A stretch of 50,543 bases of DNA from an uncultured Coriobacteriia bacterium (GTDB taxonomy: Bacteria; Actinomycetota; Coriobacteriia; Coriobacteriales; QAMH01). Below the pieces are notes generated by a model, which was not told where the DNA came from, did not search any database, and worked only from the letters and a program-made list of their open reading frames with translations. Location: positions 1 to 50,543 of the forward strand of contig CAOKAE010000011.1 in assembly GCA_948466335.1 (NCBI GenBank), written 5' to 3'. Below, one piece after another: positions 18,841-36,488 of the stretch (position 1 is the stretch's first letter; each line of letters begins with the position of its first letter). Both the position numbers and the translations under genes were made by a program.

Positions 18841-19284
18841 TTAGACTTCGAGTTCCTTCATGCAGGTTGGCTGGTCGGGGACGGGAATGTCGAGGGCGTC
18901 GCAGGCGAGGATGCGCAGGTCCTGGATACTTGCCGCATAACATGCCAGCGCGTCGACCCAGCGGCGCAGGCACGCGCGTCCCTCGTCGGTCAGGTTATAG
19001 CAGCGCTTGGCCGGGCCGGACTCCGACGTGTCCCATTCGCTCACGACGAGCCCGTTGTTCTCCATCTGCTTGAGGATGCGGTAAATGCCCGTGGGGTCGG
19101 GTGCGTTGCCGTTGAACATCGGACCGTTGGACATTTCCTGGATGATGAGATAGCCGTGCACGGGCTTGTCCGCCTTTGCGAGCACGGAGAGTATCGAGGG
19201 TTGGGTCAGGCGGCTCAGGCTCTTACCGAGCTGACCACATTCGCTGAGTTCCTTCTCGGATTTGGGATGGCAGGCGGACCACAT
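18841..19284 (-). CDS. PadR-family transcriptional regulator, cysteine-rich
   Basis: The winged-helix domain spans about residues 22-100: LTQPSILSVLAKADKPVHGYLIIQEM, then GIYRILKQMENNGLVVSEW and KRCYNLTDEGRACLRRW. This is the PadR pattern. PadR proteins repress nearby genes and release DNA on binding a ligand. The protein has seven Cys in 147 residues, including C5 and C16 in an unusual N-terminal extension, so thiol-reactive metalloid sensing is conceivable. AAGGGAG precedes the start by about 7 nt. It is divergent from the ArsM-like methyltransferase gene at 19615, its likeliest target. The metalloid role is inference. Confidence 0.82.
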   Translation of the reverse strand: MWSACHPKSEKELSECGQLGKSLSRLTQPSILSVLAKADKPVHGYLIIQEMSNGPMFNGNAPDPTGIYRILKQMENNGLVVSEWDTSESGPAKRCYNLTDEGRACLRRWVDALACYAASIQDLRILACDALDIPVPDQPTCMKELEV

Positions 19285-19344
19285 GGAAAAGCTCCCTTAA
19301 CATGACGTGAACGGAAAGACCATGATACGCCAAAATCTGCCCGA

Positions 19345-19433
19345 GAGGCAAAGATGACGGCTTGTGGGGAGAATTGCCTCGCGAGATGCCTGGGGCCCGC
19401 CGGCCTAGAGGCGTGTCCCAGGCATCTGCTCGC
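19345..19433. other. Structured intergenic region between padR and the methyltransferase operon
   Basis: Two adjacent hairpins are visible. GAGGCAA (19345-19351) pairs with TTGCCTC (19374-19380). GCGAG-ATGCCTGGG (19381-19394) pairs with CCCAGGCAT-ctg-CTCGC (ending near 19433), with an inner CGCC/GGCG. The second is 14 paired bases with one 3-nt bulge. It could be a 5' leader, a small RNA or a relic terminator; it matches no riboswitch family I recognise. Confidence 0.5.
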
Positions 19434-19470
19434 AACAGTAGGGGAAACCACGCGCTTAGCTGCGAAGCGA

Positions 19471-19525
19471 GTTGACATGAACCAGTATAGGATATAGTCT
19501 GCTACTAGCGCAAGTGGAAATATTC
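19471..19525 (+). promoter_or_regulatory. Candidate promoter/operator of the ArsM-ArsS operon
   Basis: TTGACA (19471-19476) is a perfect -35; TATAGT 15 nt later is the best -10, a slightly short spacer. Downstream, TGGAAATATTCCA (19513-19525) has palindromic TGGAA/TTCCA arms and could be an operator. The first gene of the operon begins at 19615. Confidence 0.5.
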
Positions 19526-19614
19526 CAAAGGAAAACGACCGTTGCGGCAGATTGCGCACGCCAGAGAAAGCGAGCTCGAATCTGCTGTCTTGACCGGGCG
19601 AGGAAGGATACGTC

Positions 19615-20712
19615 ATGGATTATCAGGGTTATCGCGATTGGTATACGCTGGATGTCGACCCGGAGGAGTACTACCGGGAGATAGCGAAGCTGCAGGACGC
19701 CGATCCGCAGGCCACCGCCCGCACGCGTGACACGGACGAGACGATTCCTCCCTCGATTCGCGAGAAGCTGTTCAACATCTCGGCCGAGATCAAGAACTAC
19801 TTCCACGAATTCGGCACGCCCATGCCCCCGCTGCTGGAGGGTTGCACGGTTCTCGACCTCTGTTGCGGGTCGGGCCGCGATACCTACCTCGCCGCGCAGC
19901 TCGTGGGGCCGACCGGCAAGGTCATTGGCATCGAGCCGGATGCCGAACGCCTGGTCAAGGCGGAGAAGTACCTCGACCAGGAGATGGCCCAATTCGGATA
20001 CGACGCGTTCAACGTCGATTTCATCCATGGCGCGCCCGAGGACCTTTCCATGATTGCCGACGAGTCGATAGACGTCGTCATATCCAACTGCACCTTCAAT
20101 CTCTCCCCGAACAAGAACGCCTACGTCGAGGAGGTCAAGCGCGTCCTCAAGGAAGGCGGCGAGTGGTACTTCACCGACGTGTTCACCGACCGTCGCATTC
20201 CGCTCGAGAAGGCCCGCGACATCAAGCTGCGTGCCCTGCGTCTGGCCGGAGCCATGTACATCAACGATTTCCGCAGGCTCGTGCAGCATTTCGAGCTGCT
20301 CGACCCCCGCTACCTCATGACCTTCAAGACCGAGCTGACGGCAAGCGAGCAGGGGCTGTTTCCCGACATCGCCTTTGCGACCATCACGGTGCGCGCGATG
20401 AAGTCGAAATGGGCCGAGGACGTCTGCGAGTCCTATGGCGAGACGGTCACGTACAAGGGTAATCTTCCCGACTATCCCGACGCGTTCCTCTTCGACACCA
20501 ACATCAAGTTCCCCACGGGAAAGACCTGCCCCGTCTGCGGCAACGTTTCCGCCATCGCAGCCCACTCGCGGTATAGTTCAGCTTTCGAGTACACGGGAAA
20601 TCGCGACCAGCATATCGGCGATACCCATGGCGACCATATCATCAAGACGGCCCCCAACTACGAGGGCGTCTACGATGAGGACGACCAGCCGATCAATGCG
20701 AGCTGCTGCTAG
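19615..20712 (+). CDS. ArsM-like SAM-dependent methyltransferase with altered cysteine set
   Basis: The 365-residue protein has a class I methyltransferase domain (about 45-230): LEGCTVLDLCCGSGRDTYLAA is the SAM loop and DVVISNCTFNLSP is the ArsM-type SNC motif with Cys159. Known ArsM enzymes methylate arsenite held by Cys residues in the SNC and ECxxGA motifs. Here the second motif reads RLAGAM, so Arg209 replaces the Cys. The C-terminal ~90 residues have a CPVC pair and end in Ser-Cys-Cys, a possible alternative metalloid site. Its tail resembles residues 270-320 of the ArsM-ArsS fusion, so the two are paralogues. AGGAAGGA precedes the start. The substrate is unproven. Confidence 0.8.
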   Translation: MDYQGYRDWYTLDVDPEEYYREIAKLQDADPQATARTRDTDETIPPSIREKLFNISAEIKNYFHEFGTPMPPLLEGCTVLDLCCGSGRDTYLAAQLVGPTGKVIGIEPDAERLVKAEKYLDQEMAQFGYDAFNVDFIHGAPEDLSMIADESIDVVISNCTFNLSPNKNAYVEEVKRVLKEGGEWYFTDVFTDRRIPLEKARDIKLRALRLAGAMYINDFRRLVQHFELLDPRYLMTFKTELTASEQGLFPDIAFATITVRAMKSKWAEDVCESYGETVTYKGNLPDYPDAFLFDTNIKFPTGKTCPVCGNVSAIAAHSRYSSAFEYTGNRDQHIGDTHGDHIIKTAPNYEGVYDEDDQPINASCC

Positions 20713-20728
20713 TCAGATGGAGCGTTAG

Positions 20729-21913
20729 ATGCCATACGATACCTTCAACACCTACGGCGGCGCGTCCGCCATGCACGAGGACACGGCGACGACCAAGGCC
20801 ACCAAGAAGGATGCCGCCACCATGCCCGACAAGATTCGCTTCATGGTCATGAGCGGCTTTCTGGGCGCGGGCAAGACCACGACGATGATCGCCCTGGGCG
20901 AGTACATGAACAAGAGCTACGGCAAGGTGGGCATCATCGCCAACGACCTGGGTGCGAACCTCGTCGACACCAACCTCACCCAGACGAGCGGCTGCACGGT
21001 CGAGGAAATCGCGAGCGGCTGCATCTGCTACCAGATGGACAACACCATCGACAAGATCCGCCGCCTGCGCGACCGCGATGGTGCCGTCTTCGTGATGAGC
21101 GACATTCCCGGCCTGGGCGTCGGCGCGCTCGATCACGTCTACCATCGCCTGGTCGACGACTGCGCCGATTGGATCACGCTCTCGCCGTTCACGGTGCTCG
21201 TCGATCCCGAGCGCATCAAGTTGCTCCTTCCCGACGGCGATGACATCAACTTGCCCGAGGAGATCAAGTACCTCATGCAGCTGCAGCTCGAGGAGGCCGA
21301 CCTCATCGTGCTCAACAAGATCGACGTGATGACGTCTGAGGAAATCGAGCGCGACGTCGCTTTCCTCAGGGAGGCGTGTCCGGACATCCCGGTCATGACA
21401 ATTTCCGCCCTGCGCGGCGATGGCATTGGCGAACTTGCGGAGTATCTCGAGACACACGAGAGCCTGCTCAAGAACTTCTCGGTGCGCGACAACGAGAAGT
21501 TCCAGGAAGCCGAAAAGACCCTCACCTGGTACAACCGTCGCCTCTTCTTCAAGCAGCTCGATGACGAGAAGATCGACTGCAACGCCGTCATAGACGACCT
21601 CATCGAGGAGATTCGCATGGGTCTCATCGAGAAGAAGCGCAACGTCCCGCATCTCAAGACCTTCGCGACGGCGGGCGCGGGCGACTTCAACAAGTGCTCG
21701 CTGCTGGGCATCGACTACGACATCGAGCACACCCAGTCCTTCCTGCGTGCGCACAAGAAGATGTCGATGATCATCAACGCGCGCGCGGTATGCGAGTCGC
21801 GTCCCTTCGCGCGCATCGTCGATGACGCCGTGGACTTCGTCTGCGACAAGTACAACCTGGACGCCCAGGTGTTCTTCACCGAATGCTTCAACATGGGCGA
21901 CGAGGGAAGGTAG
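20729..21913 (+). CDS. G3E-family GTPase (CobW/HypB/UreG-like metallochaperone)
   Basis: P-loop SGFLGAGKTTTM begins near residue 42. Switch motifs follow: GCIC (98-101), close to the GCxCC metal motif of CobW-type G3E GTPases but with Tyr replacing the last Cys; SDIPGLG (Walker B/G3); and guanine-specifying NKID (G4). About 30 residues precede the core. G3E proteins insert or deliver metals such as Zn, Ni or Co, or support cobalamin and methyltransferase activation. It lies 16 nt after the ArsM-like gene and 2 nt before the ArsM-ArsS fusion gene, so it is cotranscribed and presumably serves that pathway. The client and metal are unknown. Confidence 0.8.
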   Translation: MPYDTFNTYGGASAMHEDTATTKATKKDAATMPDKIRFMVMSGFLGAGKTTTMIALGEYMNKSYGKVGIIANDLGANLVDTNLTQTSGCTVEEIASGCICYQMDNTIDKIRRLRDRDGAVFVMSDIPGLGVGALDHVYHRLVDDCADWITLSPFTVLVDPERIKLLLPDGDDINLPEEIKYLMQLQLEEADLIVLNKIDVMTSEEIERDVAFLREACPDIPVMTISALRGDGIGELAEYLETHESLLKNFSVRDNEKFQEAEKTLTWYNRRLFFKQLDDEKIDCNAVIDDLIEEIRMGLIEKKRNVPHLKTFATAGAGDFNKCSLLGIDYDIEHTQSFLRAHKKMSMIINARAVCESRPFARIVDDAVDFVCDKYNLDAQVFFTECFNMGDEGR

Positions 21914-21915
21914 CC

Positions 21916-23955
21916 ATGGCCGAGGCCGATATCCGCGCGATGGTGCGCGAGTATTACGGGGAGACGCTCGAGGACAGCGAGGACCTGCGCACCAACGCGT
22001 GCACCTGCGCGACGACGGCGCCGCCCAAGTACGTGCTCGACATCTTCCCGCTGCTGGACCCGGACATTGTCTCGCATTTTTACGGTTGCGGAAGCCCCCT
22101 GCCACCGGCGCTCGAGGGCGCCACGGTGCTCGACCTGGGCTGCGGCACGGGTCGCGACGTCTACATCGCCGCCAAGCTCGTGGGGCCGCAGGGCCACGTC
22201 ATCGGCGTGGACATGACGCCGAGCCAGCTCGAGTTCGCCCGTGCCCACGAGGCCGGGCAGATCGAGCGTCTGGGCTTGCCCAAGAGCAACGTCGAGTTCA
22301 TCGAGAGCTACATCGAGGACATGTCCGCGATTCCGAGTGACAGCGTCGACGTGGTCATCTCGAACTGCGTCATCAACCTCTCGCCCTTCAAGCAGGAGCT
22401 CTTCGACGAGATATTCCGCGTGCTCAAGCCCGGCGGCGAACTCTACTTCTCGGACATCTTCTCGGACCGCCGCGTGCCGGAAGGCTTCTACGACGACCCC
22501 ATCCTGCGCGGCGAGTGCCTGTCGGGCGCGATGTACGTCGAGGACTTCCGCCGCATGCTTACGCGCTGTGGTACGCAGGTTTGCTACGACGTCGCCCACG
22601 AGCCGCTCGAGGTGGGCGACTTCCAAATCGCCACCAAGCTCGGATCCATCGGCTTTGCCTCGCGCACCATGCGCGCCATCAAGTGCGATAAATTCGAGGA
22701 CCGCGAGGAGGACTACCAGCAAACGGCGACCTACCTCGGCACCATGCCCGAGAACAAGCGCTACTTCGACCTCGATAGCGAGGTGCGCTTCATCAAGGAC
22801 CGCCCCGTGGCCATTAGCGGCAACATGGCGACCTTCCTCGAGAACAGCCGCTATGCGCCGCACTTCAAGATCACCCCGCGTCGCGAGCACGTCGGTCCCT
22901 TCGATTTCGAGGCTGCCAACGCCGCGCTGCAGGTCATGTGCGGTAAGCGCGCGGTCGACCTTCAGTGGATCGAGGACTCCTGCGCCAAGCTCGACATCGA
23001 GCCCTTCGAAAAGCGCATCCACGACAAGGCGCTGCTCGAGACGACGACGCTGACGACGATGCAGGTCAACGTCACCTATCGCTGCAACCTCGCCTGCAAC
23101 CACTGCTACTTGAACTGCTCGCCCAAATGCGAGGAGTGCATGTCGCGCGAGACGATGGAAGCCGTGCTCGCGGCTTTTGCGACCGGCGGCTTTCGTGTCA
23201 TGGACATCACGGGCGGCTCTCCCGAGATGAATCCCGACCTCGCGTGGTTCATCGGGGAGGCATCCAAGATTGCCGAGCAGGTCATCGTGCGCTCGAACCT
23301 CTGCATTCTCGACGACCCGCAGTACGCGCACTTCAAGGACGCGTACGTTGCGAACAAGGTGAAGCTCGTCACGAGCGTGCCGTACTTCGATGCCGCGGGC
23401 GTGGACGAGCAGCGCGGCGCGGGTAGCTTCGCGAGCATCATGAAGGTGCTGCGCGACATGAACGCGCTGGGTTACGGTGTGGACCCCGAGCTACAGATCG
23501 ACATCGCCTACAACGTGGACGGTCCCTTCCTGCCACCCGACCAGGCCGACCTCGAGGATTTCTACCGCTACGAGCTCGAGCAGGCCGAGGGCGTGAAGTT
23601 CAACGGCCTGTACGCGATGAACAACTGGAACCTGGGTCGCTTTGCCGGCAAGTTGCTGGCGGCGCGTACCTACGACGAGTACAACAAGCTGCTCGCCGAC
23701 AACTACAACGGCGCGGTCGTGGCGCACATCATGTGCCGCAGCCAGCTCAACGTTGACTACGACGGTGGCCTCTACGACTGCGAGGTCAACCATGTCTTGG
23801 GCCTGCCCATTGACGAGGCGGCAAACATCCGCGACATCGTCGACGTGCCGCTGCCGGCGCGCCGCATCAAGACGAGCCCCATCTGCTATTCGTGCGCCGC
23901 GGGTTGCGGCTCGAGCTGCGGAGGCAGCCTTCTCGAGAAGTACGCGAATCTATAG
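21916..23955 (+). CDS. Fused arsenite methyltransferase-radical SAM protein (ArsM-ArsS)
   Basis: The 679-residue protein joins two domains. Residues 1-~330 are an ArsM-type methyltransferase: SAM loop VLDLGCGTGRD, and candidate As(III)-binding Cys151 (SNCVINLSP) and Cys201 (GECLSGAM), plus C29/C31. Residues ~370-679 are a radical SAM enzyme with the CNLACNHC cluster motif (C390, C394, C397), a second Cys run to C408, and the C-terminal C657-C660-C664-C668 cluster typical of ArsS (once called the rSAM/SeCys family; Cys is used here, not Sec). ArsS transfers the adenosyl group to methylated arsenic on the way to arsenosugars. AGGGAAGG fixes the start at 21916. An arsenic role is by homology. 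Confidence 0.85.
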   Translation: MAEADIRAMVREYYGETLEDSEDLRTNACTCATTAPPKYVLDIFPLLDPDIVSHFYGCGSPLPPALEGATVLDLGCGTGRDVYIAAKLVGPQGHVIGVDMTPSQLEFARAHEAGQIERLGLPKSNVEFIESYIEDMSAIPSDSVDVVISNCVINLSPFKQELFDEIFRVLKPGGELYFSDIFSDRRVPEGFYDDPILRGECLSGAMYVEDFRRMLTRCGTQVCYDVAHEPLEVGDFQIATKLGSIGFASRTMRAIKCDKFEDREEDYQQTATYLGTMPENKRYFDLDSEVRFIKDRPVAISGNMATFLENSRYAPHFKITPRREHVGPFDFEAANAALQVMCGKRAVDLQWIEDSCAKLDIEPFEKRIHDKALLETTTLTTMQVNVTYRCNLACNHCYLNCSPKCEECMSRETMEAVLAAFATGGFRVMDITGGSPEMNPDLAWFIGEASKIAEQVIVRSNLCILDDPQYAHFKDAYVANKVKLVTSVPYFDAAGVDEQRGAGSFASIMKVLRDMNALGYGVDPELQIDIAYNVDGPFLPPDQADLEDFYRYELEQAEGVKFNGLYAMNNWNLGRFAGKLLAARTYDEYNKLLADNYNGAVVAHIMCRSQLNVDYDGGLYDCEVNHVLGLPIDEAANIRDIVDVPLPARRIKTSPICYSCAAGCGSSCGGSLLEKYANL

Positions 23956-23967
23956 GTACCGGCAAAT

Positions 23968-24002
23968 AATGAGACAAATTTGACAGACACATTTGTCTCA
24001 TT
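23968..24002 (+). terminator. TGAGACA palindromic repeat, copy 4, terminator-like
   Basis: AATGAGACAAAT pairs with ATTTGTCTCATT around TTGACAGACAC, followed by TT. It lies 12 nt after the ArsM-ArsS stop and 17 nt before the deaminase start. It may lower read-through into the next gene. Confidence 0.75.
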
Positions 24003-24019
24003 TTGGAAAGGACGAGTCC

Positions 24020-25324
24020 ATGCTCTTTGCCAACATCGATATCCTCGACGAGAACCTCGAACACAAGTGCGACATGTTTGTCGGCGCCGAGGGAAGCCAT
24101 ATTACCTACGTGGGTACTGAGGAGCCCGCCGATGCCGCGCGTTTTGGTGAGCGCTACGACGGCACGGGCAAGCTGCTCATGAGCGCCTTCTACAACACGC
24201 ACGCGCACACGCCCATGACGCTACTGCGTGGCTACGCGGAGAATCAGCCCCTGCAGCAGTGGCTTAACGACACGGTCTGGCCCTTCGAGGGCAAGATGGA
24301 CGTGGAGAAGGGGCACCATTACTGGGGCTGCATGCTGAGCCAGGCCGAGATGCTGCGCTACGGCGTGGTGGGCTACACCGACATGTACTTCGCGACCATC
24401 GACCGCTGCAAGGCGACGCTCGAGGCGGGCATGAAGGCCAATCATTGCGATGGCGGCACCATGTGCTTCGTCGAGACCGACTACGACACGCTGCCCGTGG
24501 CCGAGGTGAACAGGCAGCTCTTCGCCGAGTACCAGAACGCCGGCGATGGACGCGTGAAGATCGACATGTGCGTGCATGGCGAATACACGACGCCCCAGGG
24601 CATGATCGAGCGTTGTGTGGCCGAGGCAAAGGCGCACGACACGGGCCTGCACATCCACATGTCCGAGACGAAAGCCGAGCATGACGAGTGCAAGGCGCGC
24701 CACGATGGCATGACGCCGGCTGCGTGGCTCGACCATCTGGGTGCCTTCGACGTGCCCATCACGGCAGCCCATTGCGTGTGGGTCGAGCCTTCCGACATCA
24801 AGCTGCTGGCGGACAAGGGCGTGAACGTGAGCCTGAATCCCGCAAGCAACATGAAGCTTGCCAGCGGCTTCGCGCCCGTCGATGCCATGTTGCGCGCGGG
24901 CGTGCACTGCTCGCTCGGTACCGATGGCATGGCGTCCAATAACACGCATAACATGCTGCAGAGCGCCTATCTGCTGGCCTGTGCCCAGAAGGGCAACGAG
25001 CTTGACCCGGCCATCATCACGCCCAAGCAGATTCTGCAGATGCTCACGGTCAACGGTGCGCGTGCGCAGCGCCGTGACGATTGTGGCGTGCTTGCGCAAG
25101 GTAAGCGTGCCGATCTCATCGTCATGGACATGGACACGCCGTGGATGACGCCGGTGCACGACATCGCGACCAATCTCGTCTACAGTGCCAATGGTGCCGA
25201 CGTGGTGCTTACGATGTGCGACGGCCAGGTGCTCTACGAGGATGGCGAGTACAAGACCATCGATATCGAGAAGGCCAAGGCCGAGGTGAAGCGCAGCGTC
25301 GACGAGGTGCTGAAGACGCTGTAG
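24020..25324 (+). CDS. mtaD: MTA/SAH deaminase (amidohydrolase)
   Basis: The 434-residue amidohydrolase has metal-binding HAHTPMTLLRG, GYTDMYF, HMSETKAEHDEC, the metal His in AAHCVW and SLGTDGMASNN with the catalytic Asp. This set fits the ATZ/TRZ-like 5-methylthioadenosine/S-adenosylhomocysteine deaminases. The enzyme removes SAH, a strong methyltransferase inhibitor, or MTA. It sits right after two methyltransferases and a radical SAM enzyme, which suits by-product clearance. The start at 24020 has AAAGGA upstream; an earlier in-frame TTG lies in the repeat stem. Related guanine or chlorohydrolase activities cannot be excluded by eye. Confidence 0.85.
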   Translation: MLFANIDILDENLEHKCDMFVGAEGSHITYVGTEEPADAARFGERYDGTGKLLMSAFYNTHAHTPMTLLRGYAENQPLQQWLNDTVWPFEGKMDVEKGHHYWGCMLSQAEMLRYGVVGYTDMYFATIDRCKATLEAGMKANHCDGGTMCFVETDYDTLPVAEVNRQLFAEYQNAGDGRVKIDMCVHGEYTTPQGMIERCVAEAKAHDTGLHIHMSETKAEHDECKARHDGMTPAAWLDHLGAFDVPITAAHCVWVEPSDIKLLADKGVNVSLNPASNMKLASGFAPVDAMLRAGVHCSLGTDGMASNNTHNMLQSAYLLACAQKGNELDPAIITPKQILQMLTVNGARAQRRDDCGVLAQGKRADLIVMDMDTPWMTPVHDIATNLVYSANGADVVLTMCDGQVLYEDGEYKTIDIEKAKAEVKRSVDEVLKTL

Positions 25325-25355
25325 AGACGGGTTCGCGGTAACAGCTGCTCCTAAC

Positions 25356-25394
25356 GGGACGCTTTGGCTTAGCCAGGGCGTCCCGATTTCTTTT
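25356..25394 (+). terminator. Intrinsic terminator after mtaD
   Basis: GGGACGC (25356-25362) pairs with GCGTCCC (25378-25384) and is followed by GATTTCTTTT. It closes the methyltransferase-deaminase operon. Confidence 0.85.
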
Positions 25395-25468: not shown

Positions 25469-26842
25469 ATGAAGAGCGAACCCGACATGCTTGAGGTCAG
25501 GCAGGTATGCGAGCTTACAGGCGCAACGGCTCGACAGCTACGCACGTGGGACGAGCGCGGCCTGCTACAGGCGCAGCGCACAGGCGAGCAGGTGGCGAAC
25601 AATCGCAAGCTCTTCACCGCAGATGACGTGGAGCGTGTCCAGGACATACTGCTCCTTCGTAAGCTCGGCCTTGGACTCGACGATATCCGTGCGATTCTGG
25701 AAGCGCCTGACGAGGAGCGCCGTGAGCATCTTGCCCGTCATGCCGAAGAGCTGCGGCTTGATTATGCACGCATTCAGAGTCTCATCAGCATCTCCAACAC
25801 GGCACAGATCCTCGGTATCGAGTGTGCAAGAGAGAGTGCGCTGACGTTAGGAAGCTATGAGATTCTCGCACGGTCTTATGGCAAGGATGAGAACCTCCAC
25901 CAGTTTTCTCGATGGCTTGCAAGCCATACGGAACGCGACATTACCCTTTTTGCCAATGACATACTCGAGGTAGCATCTTTGTTTGCTGAGGCGCGGCAAC
26001 ATTCTGAGTGGGAGCAACTCGAGATCTGCATTGCCCGGTTCTGTGACATGTGGTCGAAGCGCTTCGGTTGGCCAAGTGTCGGGCAGATGCTCGCCCTTCA
26101 TCTTGCATTTGAGGATGATAGTGATCATGTCCGGCTTATTGACGAAACCTACGGAGAGGGAACCTCGGCATTTATGGCTCAGGCGTTTCTTCTCGCATGG
26201 ATATCCAGTGCACTCGGGGTTCTCGACGATATTCTTGTTCATCTATACCGGGGGCAGCATGACGAGGATAACTATGCTGCGCTGCAAAATGCCGCTGAAG
26301 TGTTCACGGCGACGGCGTGCGAGTTTATGGGCTATCCACATCTGACAGATGCTGCTGCGAGTTCCCGGGCAACAGAGCGTCTCTCAGATATTGCCGAGAG
26401 TTTCTTTGCAGTCATAGTGGATTTTGCGCTGGACGAGGAGGTAAACAGCTTCCTTTCGCTGGAAGATTTTCCCGCTGTGGATGGACCGGCAATGGAGTTG
26501 GCCCAGGCGATTGCCGAGGCTCATATACGGGGAGAATTGGAAAAATGGGCCCAAGATGAGGGGTTCAGGACAATCCGGCACCGCATGCAGGAGTGGCTTG
26601 ATGGCGCTATGACGTTCTGGCTTTTGGGACGTGGCGAGAATCCACGCCGTCTCAAAGATGCGGCATGGCTCGAAGATCATTACGGGGAGTTTGAAGTCTG
26701 GCTTGAGGATTGGCTTGACGAACGCTACGACGACCCTCCCGAAGCCCACTGGGCTACGGAGGAGGAATCTTGCGTTCGCGAAAAGGCTAATCGTGAGTTC
26801 CTGGAGAGGCAGGAAGAGGCTGACGACGTTAAAATTCGATGA
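25469..26842 (+). CDS. MerR-family regulator with a large unrecognised C-terminal domain
   Basis: Residues ~8-75 form the MerR winged helix (LEVRQVCELTGATARQLRTWDERGLL, NNRKLFTADDVERVQDI, LGLGLDDIRAIL). A linker coil follows. The ~330 residues after it are helical, acidic and Trp-rich near the end (WLEDHYGEFEVWLEDWLDERY); I do not recognise the domain. It has no CxxC metal site, and its length (457) is about three times a normal MerR. AAAGGA precedes the start. Base use changes within the gene: the first ~380 bp look like the GC-rich flanks, the rest like the A/T-richer island. Its last 14 bp overlap the convergent XRE gene. Confidence 0.75.
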   Translation: MKSEPDMLEVRQVCELTGATARQLRTWDERGLLQAQRTGEQVANNRKLFTADDVERVQDILLLRKLGLGLDDIRAILEAPDEERREHLARHAEELRLDYARIQSLISISNTAQILGIECARESALTLGSYEILARSYGKDENLHQFSRWLASHTERDITLFANDILEVASLFAEARQHSEWEQLEICIARFCDMWSKRFGWPSVGQMLALHLAFEDDSDHVRLIDETYGEGTSAFMAQAFLLAWISSALGVLDDILVHLYRGQHDEDNYAALQNAAEVFTATACEFMGYPHLTDAAASSRATERLSDIAESFFAVIVDFALDEEVNSFLSLEDFPAVDGPAMELAQAIAEAHIRGELEKWAQDEGFRTIRHRMQEWLDGAMTFWLLGRGENPRRLKDAAWLEDHYGEFEVWLEDWLDERYDDPPEAHWATEEESCVREKANREFLERQEEADDVKIR

Positions 26843-33338: not shown

Positions 33339-33446
33339 GATTTCTCCCTACCTTGCACACATAGCTGTTTTCGCATGATACCGCAAATTAGCAGGTGCTA
33401 TCGGGTATTCCTGCACGACAATTGTGCTTGCAGTGTGCATAATGCA

Positions 33447-33475
33447 TGCCAATCCTTCTTCAAAACGAATACAAT
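33447..33475 (+). promoter_or_regulatory. Candidate lutABC promoter
   Basis: TACAAT (33470-33475) is a good -10. TGCCAA, 17 nt upstream, is a weak -35. The Shine-Dalgarno GGAGGGA and the ATG at 33521 follow. Confidence 0.45.
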
Positions 33476-33520
33476 GAAGCACAACGCTTCAGGACAATCC
33501 TCGGAGGGAGAGCCAATCGC

Positions 33521-34264
33521 ATGAAAGTCGCGTTTTTCCCCGGCTGCATGGTCGACATGTTCTATCCCGAAATCGGCATCGCCGCAGTCAACGTGCTCGA
33601 ACGTCTGGGCTGCTCGGTCGAGATGCCCGAAGAGCAGGTCTGCTGCGGGCAGGGCCTTCTCAACTCGGGATATGCCAAGGAGACGATACCCGTCGCCAAG
33701 AACATCCTCGATGCCTACGACCTCGACCAGTACGAGACGATCGTCTCGCTCACCGGCTCGTGCATGAACACCATCATCAACGACTACCCCACGGTGCTCG
33801 ATGATGTGGAGTACCTGCACAAGGTAGAGCGCATCCGCCCGCGCATGTTCGAGTTCACCGACTTCATCGTCAACCAGCTGCACACGACCGACGTGGGTGC
33901 GAGCTTCCATCACAAGGTCACTTATCACAAGAGCTGCCACGTCACGCGCTTCCTTGGCATCGAGGAGGCGCCCCTGCAGCTGCTCAAGGCCGTCGAGGGA
34001 CTCGAATACATCGAGATGGTGCATGCCGAGCGCTGCTGCGGCTTTGGCGGCACCTTCTCGTTCAAGGAACCCGAGATTTCGGCGGAGATCGTCAAGGAGA
34101 AGTGCGAGACCATCATCGAGACGGGTGCCGACGTCGTGTGCGGCGCCGATGTGCCCTGCCTCATGAACATCAAGGGCGCCCTCGCGCGCCTGCGCACGCA
34201 GGGCGTGATTGACCGTGACATACGCGTCATGCATATCGCCCAGATTCTGGATGCGAGGGAGTAG
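33521..34264 (+). CDS. lutA: Lactate utilization protein A (Fe-S, CCG domains)
   Basis: The 247-residue protein has two CCG-type Cys-rich domains: FFPGCMVDMFYPE...VCCGQGLLNSGY and YHKSCHVTRFLG...RCCGFGGTFSFKEPEIS. This matches LutA/YkgE. LutABC oxidises L-lactate to pyruvate without a soluble cofactor, passing electrons onward. The start at 33521 (MKVAFFPGC) has GGAGGGA upstream; the 25 in-frame residues before it are not family-like. lutB begins 2 nt after the stop. The two domains resemble those in the HdrD-like gene at 40131. Confidence 0.9.
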   Translation: MKVAFFPGCMVDMFYPEIGIAAVNVLERLGCSVEMPEEQVCCGQGLLNSGYAKETIPVAKNILDAYDLDQYETIVSLTGSCMNTIINDYPTVLDDVEYLHKVERIRPRMFEFTDFIVNQLHTTDVGASFHHKVTYHKSCHVTRFLGIEEAPLQLLKAVEGLEYIEMVHAERCCGFGGTFSFKEPEISAEIVKEKCETIIETGADVVCGADVPCLMNIKGALARLRTQGVIDRDIRVMHIAQILDARE

Positions 34265-34266
34265 CC

Positions 34267-35754
34267 ATGGCCATTCTGTACGATACCGAACAGTCCCTGC
34301 GGCAGCGCGCTGCCAAGTGCATCGAGGACGATTTCAAGCACCAGGCGATCCAGACGGCCCAGGAGACCTTCTACCAGAAGCGCAAGGCGCTGGTTGAGGA
34401 GGAGCCGGACTGGCAGGGGTTGCGCACGACGGCGATGGACATTCGCGACCACGTCGCCAAGAACCTCGACTACTACGTGAAGCAGTTTGCCGAGAACGCG
34501 AGCAATCATGGCGTGAACGTGCACTTCGCGTCCACCGGTACCCAAGCGCTCTGGGAGGCGCTCGACATCTTCGAGAATTATGGCGCCTTCAAGGCCGTCA
34601 AGTCAAAGTCCATGATGACCGAGGAAATCGGCCTCAATCACGTGCTCGAGGAGGCTGGCGTCGAGGTCATCGAGACCGACTGCGCCGAGAACATCCTGCA
34701 GACGGCCGGTGACATGCCCTCGCACATCGTCGTTCCCGCGTTGCATCACACGCGCGATGACATCGCCGAGCTGTATCGCAAGAAGTGCGGCTATGACGGC
34801 GACAACGTCCCCGAGCATATCACGCACTTCCTGCGCGAGATGTTGCGTCCGGAATTCCTGAGCGCGCAGGTCGGCATACGCGGCTGCAACCTCGCCGTGG
34901 CCGAGACCGGTTCGGTGACGCTGGTCACCAACGAGGGCAACGGCCGCATGGTCGACACCTATCCGCCCGTGCAGGTTGTCTTCGTCGGCATCGATCGCAT
35001 CGTGCCCACGCTCGAGTCCCTCGACATCTTCATGGCGCTGCTGCCCAAGAGCGCGGTGGGTTCCAAGATGACGGCGTACTTCAGCGTGGACACCGGCGCG
35101 CGTCGCGATGGCGAGCTGGACGGTCCTGCCGAGGTGCACTACATCATCATGGACAACGGCCGCCACAAGCTGCTCGACACGGAGTTCGAGCCCATGATGC
35201 GCTGCGTGCGTTGCGGCGCCTGCCTTAACATTTGCCCCGTGTACCGCCATATCAGCGGTCACGGTTATGGGTCCATCTATCCTGGCCCCATGGGCATCGT
35301 GCTCACGCCCGAGCTCGTGGGCTATGGCGACGCCAACGCCAAGGCGATGACCTTCGCCTGCACGCTGTGCGGTGCTTGCAGCGAGCATTGCCCAGTGCGC
35401 ATACCCATCCATGACCTCGTGCGCGACCATCGCATCGAGATCGTCGACACGGGCAAGAACAACAAGGTTGAGGTTCCCATCTTCAAGGCCATGCAGGCCA
35501 TGTGGTCGAGCAGTCCGCTGTACATGGCGCTCATGCGTCTCGGACGCCCCGTCATGAACATCCTCACGCGCGGCGGCTCGTCGCTTGACGAGCGCAGCGC
35601 CTGGATCCCGGTGCTCGGCAGCTGGACCTCATCACGCGACTTCGACGTCATCGCGCCCTATCGTTTCCGCACCTGGTTGGCCGAGCACAACGCCGCCCGT
35701 GCCGAGGAGCGCAAACGCGAGGATGACGGTCAGGACCAGAAGGGCGGTGCATGA
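34267..35754 (+). CDS. lutB: Lactate utilization protein B (ferredoxin-type Fe-S)
   Basis: The 495-residue protein has an N-terminal LUD domain (about 70-300) and two 4Fe-4S motifs, CVRCGACLNICPVYR and CTLCGACSEHCPVR, each of the CxxCxxCxxxCP type. The C-terminal ~90 residues form the DUF3390-like tail (TSSRDFDVIAPYRFRTWLAEH). This is the LutB order. It lies 2 nt after lutA; its stop overlaps the lutC start by 4 bp, so the three are one translation-coupled unit. The complex presumably donates electrons to an anaerobic acceptor. Confidence 0.93.
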   Translation: MAILYDTEQSLRQRAAKCIEDDFKHQAIQTAQETFYQKRKALVEEEPDWQGLRTTAMDIRDHVAKNLDYYVKQFAENASNHGVNVHFASTGTQALWEALDIFENYGAFKAVKSKSMMTEEIGLNHVLEEAGVEVIETDCAENILQTAGDMPSHIVVPALHHTRDDIAELYRKKCGYDGDNVPEHITHFLREMLRPEFLSAQVGIRGCNLAVAETGSVTLVTNEGNGRMVDTYPPVQVVFVGIDRIVPTLESLDIFMALLPKSAVGSKMTAYFSVDTGARRDGELDGPAEVHYIIMDNGRHKLLDTEFEPMMRCVRCGACLNICPVYRHISGHGYGSIYPGPMGIVLTPELVGYGDANAKAMTFACTLCGACSEHCPVRIPIHDLVRDHRIEIVDTGKNNKVEVPIFKAMQAMWSSSPLYMALMRLGRPVMNILTRGGSSLDERSAWIPVLGSWTSSRDFDVIAPYRFRTWLAEHNAARAEERKREDDGQDQKGGA

Positions 35755-36488
35755 TGGAGCGCGCGACACTCGAGAGCTTCCTCGCTCCCATCTCCAAGCA
35801 GCTGGGACATGATTCGGTCCCGCAGGACGTCGAGCCGTTCGACTACGCGAAGAACGCGCCCGCGCGTCGCACCGACGGGCTGGCTCACGCGCGACTCGTG
35901 GACATGTTCGCTGACGAGGCGGAAAAGGTGCGCGTGGGCGTGCATCGCTGCAAGTCGGCGGATGCCGCCCAGGTCATCGCCGACATCATCACGACGGATG
36001 GCGAACCGGGGTCGGTCGTCTACGCCGATGATCATCGCATCGAGAAGATGCACGTCCCCGCCGCGCTCGAGAAGTGCCCGGCGGTTACCGAGGCCACGCG
36101 CTGGGATGCGAAAGCCGGGCGTGATGCCATGATCGACGCGTGCAACGTGGCGCGCTACGGCATCACCTATGCCCAGGGCGGCATCGCCGAGACCGGCACC
36201 ATCGTGCAGTTGTGCGACGAGAGCTGCGGCCGCTCCATTAGCCTGCTGCCGACCGTGCACATCGCGATTGTCAACGCCGCCGACGTGAAGGCGACCATGG
36301 GCGATTGGCTCGCCGAGCTTGACAGGCAAGGTGCTCCAAATGGCGACAAGCTGCCCTCACAGATCTGCTTCATCAGCGGTCCGTCAGCGACGGCCGACAT
36401 CGAGCTCGTGCGCGTCGAGGGCGTGCATGGTCCCATGGCCGTGCACTACGTCATCATCGAGGGCAGGGGGCTGCACAGCCTGACTTAG
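35751..36488 (+). CDS. lutC: Lactate utilization protein C (LUD domain)
   Basis: The 245-residue protein is a LutC/YkgG LUD-domain protein, with YGITYAQGGIAETGTIVQL, SLLPTVHIAIV and the closing GPSATADIELVRVEGVHGP. It completes the lactate oxidation complex encoded with lutA and lutB. The first ~60 residues are longer than needed for the domain. The ATG at 35751 overlaps the lutB TGA; an ATG at 35754 is also possible. Its 3' end overlaps the convergent hydrolase gene by 4 bp. Confidence 0.9.
   Translation: MMERATLESFLAPISKQLGHDSVPQDVEPFDYAKNAPARRTDGLAHARLVDMFADEAEKVRVGVHRCKSADAAQVIADIITTDGEPGSVVYADDHRIEKMHVPAALEKCPAVTEATRWDAKAGRDAMIDACNVARYGITYAQGGIAETGTIVQLCDESCGRSISLLPTVHIAIVNAADVKATMGDWLAELDRQGAPNGDKLPSQICFISGPSATADIELVRVEGVHGPMAVHYVIIEGRGLHSLT

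Follow-up and report, generated by a model that had tools for sequence, protein, structure and literature searches.

Organization of the locus

We have analysed a window of 50,543 nucleotides from an uncultured Coriobacteriia bacterium, to which, of its named relatives, a rumen-type 'uncultured Coriobacteriaceae' assembly and assemblies of Eggerthellaceae stand closest. Within it a PadR-family regulator diverges from four genes that run together on the forward strand. The coordinates, strands and intergenic gaps of all five genes are as an earlier note on this DNA had claimed, and the last of the run is, as it also said, an amidohydrolase of the MTA/SAH deaminase type (MtaD). The features are:

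18841-19284, (-) strand: Cys-rich regulator of the PadR family, oriented divergently to the operon (PF03551, 60.2 bits)
19384-19427, strand not given: 18-nt inverted repeat between PadR and MT1, a possible operator or leader hairpin
19615-20712, (+) strand: MT1, an ArsM-fold SAM methyltransferase paralogue, assigned by fold comparison and cysteine columns
20729-21913, (+) strand: G3E/CobW-type GTPase with CxCY (PF02492, 69.5 bits), after a 16-nt gap from MT1
21916-23955, (+) strand: ArsM-ArsS fusion (TIGR04167 and DUF3641), after a 2-nt gap from G3E
about 23035-23931, (+) strand: C-terminal portion of the fusion, radical-SAM ArsS
24020-25324, (+) strand: MtaD-type amidohydrolase of the SAH/MTA/5'-deoxyadenosine deaminase family
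25355-25385, (+) strand: terminator-like hairpin 3' of MtaD, with 14 pairs of which 10 are G-C, and a T-rich tail

The hairpin that follows MtaD fits a single transcript terminating there. It is the longest found in a scan in which the total count of hairpins was about equal to that of shuffled sequences. No Rfam match to an RNA element was found at the locus. The arm of the 18-nt repeat is not found again, letter for letter, elsewhere in the window; the intergenic stretch that bears it has nothing similar in locus L039, and no conservation of it was found. Directly downstream of the operon's terminator lies a MerR-type regulator (25469-26842; PF13411, with a weak TipAS match). At 33446-36488 there are LutABC-like lactate-utilization genes between two dicarboxylate symporters, an ordinary arrangement.

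The earlier note saw neither arsB nor acr3 in the window, and did not take the locus for ordinary efflux. This extends to the host, since there is no match to an Acr3, ArsB or ArsP permease in its assembly (1.89 Mb, 97.3% complete), and an ordinary ars efflux operon was rejected on these grounds.

The ArsM-ArsS fusion

Judged by its sequence, the fusion is a complete ArsM and a complete ArsS within one chain, as had been claimed. Residues 375-673 score 328.8 bits against the ArsS model TIGR04167 (cut-off 300; 331.5 bits in the genome search), and DUF3641 is also present. The cysteines of the radical-SAM CxxxCxxC motif (C391, C395 and C398) are conserved, and the C-terminal Sec/Cys site of ArsS (GxxU/C) is GSSC. 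With Cys occupying this site, a selenoprotein reading of the window genes was rejected.

The N-terminal half matches the solved ArsM structures in the PDB with E values of 1e-89 to 1e-83. By a published criterion (PMC5552862) an ArsM has three or more of the As(III) cysteines C44, C72, C174 and C224, together with the SAM motif. Alignment with CmArsM places all four in the fusion, so its N-terminal half passes as ArsM. C72, C174 and C224 are present in 41 of the 42 ArsM sequences of ArsM-ArsS loci; the C44 column is unclear in 15 of the 42, where the alignment is loose. The arsinothricin ArsM model NF040538, with a cut-off of 500 bits, is reached neither by the fusion (143) nor by MT1 (83).

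MT1 has the fold of ArsM without most of its arsenic ligands

MT1 is ~40% identical to the ArsM half of the fusion, and the best PDB matches of its AlphaFold model (mean pLDDT 84.7) are all ArsM or AS3MT, with TM scores of 0.91-0.92 normalised to CrArsM. It thus has the ArsM fold. In the family-model search MT1 lies below every ArsM cut-off. At the sites of C44, C72 and C224 it has T, F and R respectively, leaving C174 as the sole As(III) ligand. This is general among 24 sequences of the MT1 kind, where C44, C72 or C224 is kept in none and C174 in all. MT1 therefore falls short of the As(III)-cysteine criterion (PMC5552862), and the earlier note's count of two ArsM proteins has to be reduced to one. 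The note's other family assignments, of the fusion to ArsM-ArsS and of the GTPase to the G3E family, stand. Since MT1 retains a single As(III) ligand, arsenite methyltransferase is an unsuitable name for it.

The SAM-binding region LCCGSGRD and many other positions of MT1 are invariant or nearly so in 18 homologues. The invariant cysteines are C271, C308 and those of a terminal Cys-Cys-COOH, found in 18/18; a further sequence besides these (L124) has another C-terminus in its called frame. The final ~30 residues have low prediction confidence in the AlphaFold model, and the Cys-Cys-COOH tail is probably flexible. Mercuric reductase is a metal-handling protein with a C-terminal Cys-Cys. A Cys-Cys-COOH C-terminus occurs in metal-handling proteins such as SaoC (PMC13188914).

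The G3E GTPase

The GTPase contains the CobW/HypB/UreG nucleotide-binding domain (PF02492, 69.5 bits over a cut-off of 20.7). The GTPase fold and P-loop are common to it and to the COG0523/CobW and MeaB G3E GTPases, yet it differs from these in several ways. The CxCC metal-binding motif is replaced by CxCY, in which C98 and C100 are invariant and Y101 nearly so. It lies outside the curated subfamilies, with no NCBIfam model near its cut-off. The C-terminal domain is unassigned, and no CobW C-terminal domain was detected. The resemblance of the predicted structure (mean pLDDT 87.2) to YjiA, HypB, UreG and MeaB is confined to the GTPase domain, and none of the solved structures covers the full chain well (query-normalised TM ≤0.39). 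The earlier note considered the GTPase the most novel part of the locus, and we concur.

Recurrence of the gene order in Coriobacteriia

How general is this arrangement? Among 85 distinct G3E loci excluding that of the window, 21 have MT1, G3E and ArsM-ArsS in this order on one strand, distributed over many Coriobacteriia genera. In a few further loci the trio is permuted, or is broken by contig ends. The flanks mostly vary between genomes, so that what recurs is the trio as a unit and not a long stretch of inherited synteny. The 42 ArsM-ArsS-linked loci have MT1 within 6 kb in 23 cases, a DUF5714 gene in 10, MtaD in 9 and PadR in 1. From these counts conservation holds for the three-gene core and does not extend to all five genes, so that the order highlighted in the earlier note recurs in its core and not as a five-gene unit. 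The refuting condition that the note set, an order peculiar to this one genome, thus does not apply to the core.

The association of G3E with ArsS is strong. Analysis of 398 genomes of the class finds G3E in 35 (E ≤1e-40) and ArsS in 80. ArsS is present in 34 of the 35 genomes with G3E, compared with 46 of the 363 without (Fisher P 7e-26, calculated over related genomes that are not independent). The named gut carriers are Gordonibacter, Ellagibacter, Adlercreutzia and Raoultibacter, with Gordonibacter pamelaeae and Ellagibacter isourolithinifaciens as cultured examples.

G3E relatives beyond Coriobacteriia

The G3E alignment was scanned across the genomes of 84,980 species, giving 80 loci. 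Their hosts are Coriobacteriia, Bacillota and Synergistota, together with a Syntrophus assembly and a single distant actinomycete. Of the neighbours that could be recognised in Bacillota, a TrsS-like radical-SAM protein is the most frequent; that of Clostridium ragsdalei scores 654.9 bits over a cut-off of 490. TrsS is nearest by sequence to tetraether lipid synthase, and we know of no product assigned to it. A DVU_1553-type ligase and a DVU_1556-type methyltransferase are often near the Bacillota G3E-TrsS pairs. These neighbourhoods, known as radical-SAM selenoprotein clusters, share with our locus the same G3E subfamily but are without the ArsM-ArsS fusion and MT1. Since G3E is found beside both ArsM-ArsS and TrsS, its radical-SAM association spans at least two enzyme families.

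A tree of 85 G3E sequences has two supported clades, of 31 and 17 rows, that are mostly linked to ArsM-ArsS. Between them lie Bacillota lineages that have either TrsS or no recognised partner. No radical-SAM neighbour is found within 6 kb in 23 of the 85 loci, some of which are at contig ends. In six loci the gene adjoining G3E is a regulator of the ArsR/SmtB type that contains CxC, and in Bacillota ArsR-type metalloregulators (81.6 bits over 55) sometimes lie ahead of G3E-TrsS. A further addition at some G3E loci is an ABC transporter with a conserved Cys-Cys in its binding protein. In Clostridium ragsdalei (L104:6986-9513) a G3E that is 57% identical to that of the window is followed directly by TrsS; no methyltransferase was recognised beside it. 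The one TGA flagged in a G3E match (L027) was not taken for Sec, because that G3E has its own intact 362-aa frame.

MtaD and PadR are accessory

PadR and MtaD lie outside the conserved core, as accessory genes. The superfamily membership of MtaD is clear (structure match to TM0936, E 1e-61). It scores below the equivalog cut-offs, with 362 of 609 for PRK06038 and 257 of 522 for 5'-deoxyadenosine deaminase, and is the sole close copy in the host genome. Nine of the 42 ArsM-ArsS loci have MtaD no more than 6 kb from G3E, for which the probability is ~4e-12 if a single-copy gene is placed at random. MtaD adjoins a standalone ArsS in L200, and in L109 and L110 a purine-nucleoside phosphorylase (323 bits over 218) lies between ArsM-ArsS and MtaD. 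Radical-SAM enzymes are described as forming 5'-deoxyadenosine as a toxic by-product (PMC6079011). Members of the MtaD family are often general SAH/MTA deaminases, and so a link of MtaD to arsenic products is one that we infer.

Among the 42 ArsM-ArsS loci PadR occurs within 6 kb in one only. In L103, from another genus of the same family, a PadR of 79% identity is found upstream of the G3E locus and in divergent orientation. MT1 is absent there, G3E and the fusion are separated by a symporter-like gene, and a Nudix-like gene is upstream (both named by eye).

An apparent second metal-related cluster in the host

On another contig the host genome has an apparent second metal-related cluster (C1:253662-260239, L188), comprising a CitMHS-type permease, a DUF5714/MbdU-like protein, an NMT1-like ABC transporter and a radical-SAM protein. 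It is similar to the SAO (Sec-assisted organometallic) system in that the transporter ATPase and permease resemble SaoA and SaoP, the binding protein has a Cys-Cys (within YPCCRQ), and the DUF5714/MbdU-like gene lies ahead. The scores are 217 of 360 bits for SaoA and 66 of 295 for SaoP; with no Sao model over its cut-off the cluster is not filed as SAO.

Discussion

Few radical-SAM pathways that create C-As bonds are known, being those to the cyanobacterial arsenosugars and to Burkholderia arsinothricin (PMC12159101). Our locus shares with the cyanobacterial (oxo-)arsenosugar pathway both an As(III) methyltransferase and a radical-SAM ArsS (PMC12159101), each with its signature. It differs in that the two are fused into one chain, that the host belongs to the anaerobe-type Coriobacteriia, and that G3E and MT1, and sometimes MtaD, are added. 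The arsQML genes of Burkholderia gladioli (PMC8552651) likewise provide ArsM and a radical-SAM enzyme that forms a C-As bond. However, the arsinothricin radical-SAM protein transfers a 3-amino-3-carboxypropyl group (PMC12159101), whereas the locus has ArsS with DUF3641; given the missed model cut-offs and the absence of ArsL, an arsinothricin-type pathway was rejected. We take the locus for a new form of the ArsM/ArsS organoarsenic pathway, to which two conserved partners are added. As neither of these, G3E or MT1, has a known role in arsenic chemistry, the gene set provides a testable new variant of organoarsenic biosynthesis. Our literature search found nothing on DUF5714, or on Eggerthella together with arsM; the primary SAO and TrsS/MbdU papers, which fall outside that search, may mention G3E. 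The mlp gene-cluster preprint (PMC10418091) mentions neither arsenic nor the genes of the locus.

On the sequence evidence we read the locus as a metalloid-alkylation operon, most probably for arsenic, in which the fusion would methylate and adenosylate, the GTPase would be a chaperone or gatekeeper, MT1 a paralogue, and MtaD would deaminate nucleosides; we give this a probability of about 0.6. Metalloid SAM chemistry at the locus is likely; that its substrate is arsenic, and what G3E and MT1 do, are points that we infer. The ArsM half of the fusion would methylate As(III). The methylated arsenic would then move along the one polypeptide to the ArsS half, predicted to add a 5'-deoxyadenosyl group in arsenosugar-type chemistry. 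G3E may deliver or guard a metal or metalloid thiolate for the radical-SAM/methyltransferase chemistry, a role set beside the finding that its relatives accompany two radical-SAM partners, ArsM-ArsS and TrsS. MT1 would have given up the known mode of As(III) binding; the metalloid may be ferried from partner to partner on its Cys-Cys-COOH tail, or alternatively MT1 might alkylate a later intermediate. The use of SAM would generate SAH and possibly 5'-deoxyadenosine, and MtaD could deaminate either of these or the arsenonucleoside itself. The purine-nucleoside phosphorylase of L109 and L110 would make a sensible following step. A methyl- and adenosyltransferase conserved as one chain in named gut bacteria would mean that gut microbes may make complex organoarsenicals, with a bearing on arsenic toxicity and speciation, and a COG0523-type GTPase would gain a concrete partner and a test of why a GTPase accompanies radical-SAM chemistry.

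Could the same enzymes act upon another element, such as antimony, selenium, tellurium or mercury, with arsenic incidental? The lack of arsenic ligands in MT1 is consistent with this, as is the resemblance of the neighbouring DUF5714/MbdU-like proteins, TrsS and Cys-Cys ABC binding proteins to families of general metal(loid) handling, mercury included (reviewed in PMC13188914). Yet the fusion retains precisely the As(III) ligands, it matches ArsS, which is known to adenosylate arsenic (PMC12159101), and the regulator beside some G3E relatives is of the ArsR/SmtB type with CxC; we consider another element unlikely. We find it equally improbable that G3E is an ordinary housekeeping metallochaperone for Zn, Co or Ni, simply carried along beside the pair. 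Its CobW/COG0523 type belongs to a family that are generally metal chaperones, and 23 of the 85 loci lack a radical-SAM neighbour within 6 kb, but G3E tightly adjoins ArsM-ArsS in two separate supported clades and TrsS in others, it co-occurs strongly with ArsS, and its CxCC is altered.

The remaining alternatives concern the individual partners. MT1, ~40% identical to the fusion's ArsM domain but without its arsenic site, might be inactive, a pseudo-enzyme serving the fusion as scaffold or regulator. This deserves to be kept in mind, although it is doubtful, because the conservation of LCCGSGRD and of many other positions among the 18 homologues is above that expected of a dead enzyme. MtaD might be unrelated housekeeping salvage, and PadR unrelated to the operon, neither being conserved across most core loci. 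We regard this as a little less credible than an inactive MT1, in view of the clustering of MtaD with the ArsM-ArsS loci and with the standalone ArsS of L200, and of the divergent PadR that recurs in a second genus.

Beyond the arsenic operon itself, we tentatively suggest, with the odds against it, that this G3E subfamily could be a dedicated GTP-driven partner of SAM-methyltransferase/radical-SAM organometalloid pairs, common to the otherwise unrelated ArsM-ArsS and TrsS. MT1 would then be a new ArsM-derived protein handing metalloid to the fusion via its Cys-Cys-COOH tail, the whole making up an organoarsenical assembly line in gut and rumen anaerobes.

Variants of ArsS elsewhere in the class

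Genomes that lack G3E contain five ArsS proteins with long frames (L190-L194), each with an N-terminal domain of ~360 aa that has no Pfam match; by eye the domain resembles a metallophosphoesterase. We rejected these as examples of ArsM-ArsS without G3E, since the N-terminal halves do not match ArsM. In the standalone ArsS of several Coriobacteriia the GSSU site coincides exactly with an in-frame TGA, which is likely to be selenocysteine, and other standalone relatives have GSSC. The loci of the GSSU type are L165, L168, L170, L172, L173, L178, L179, L182, L184 and L186.
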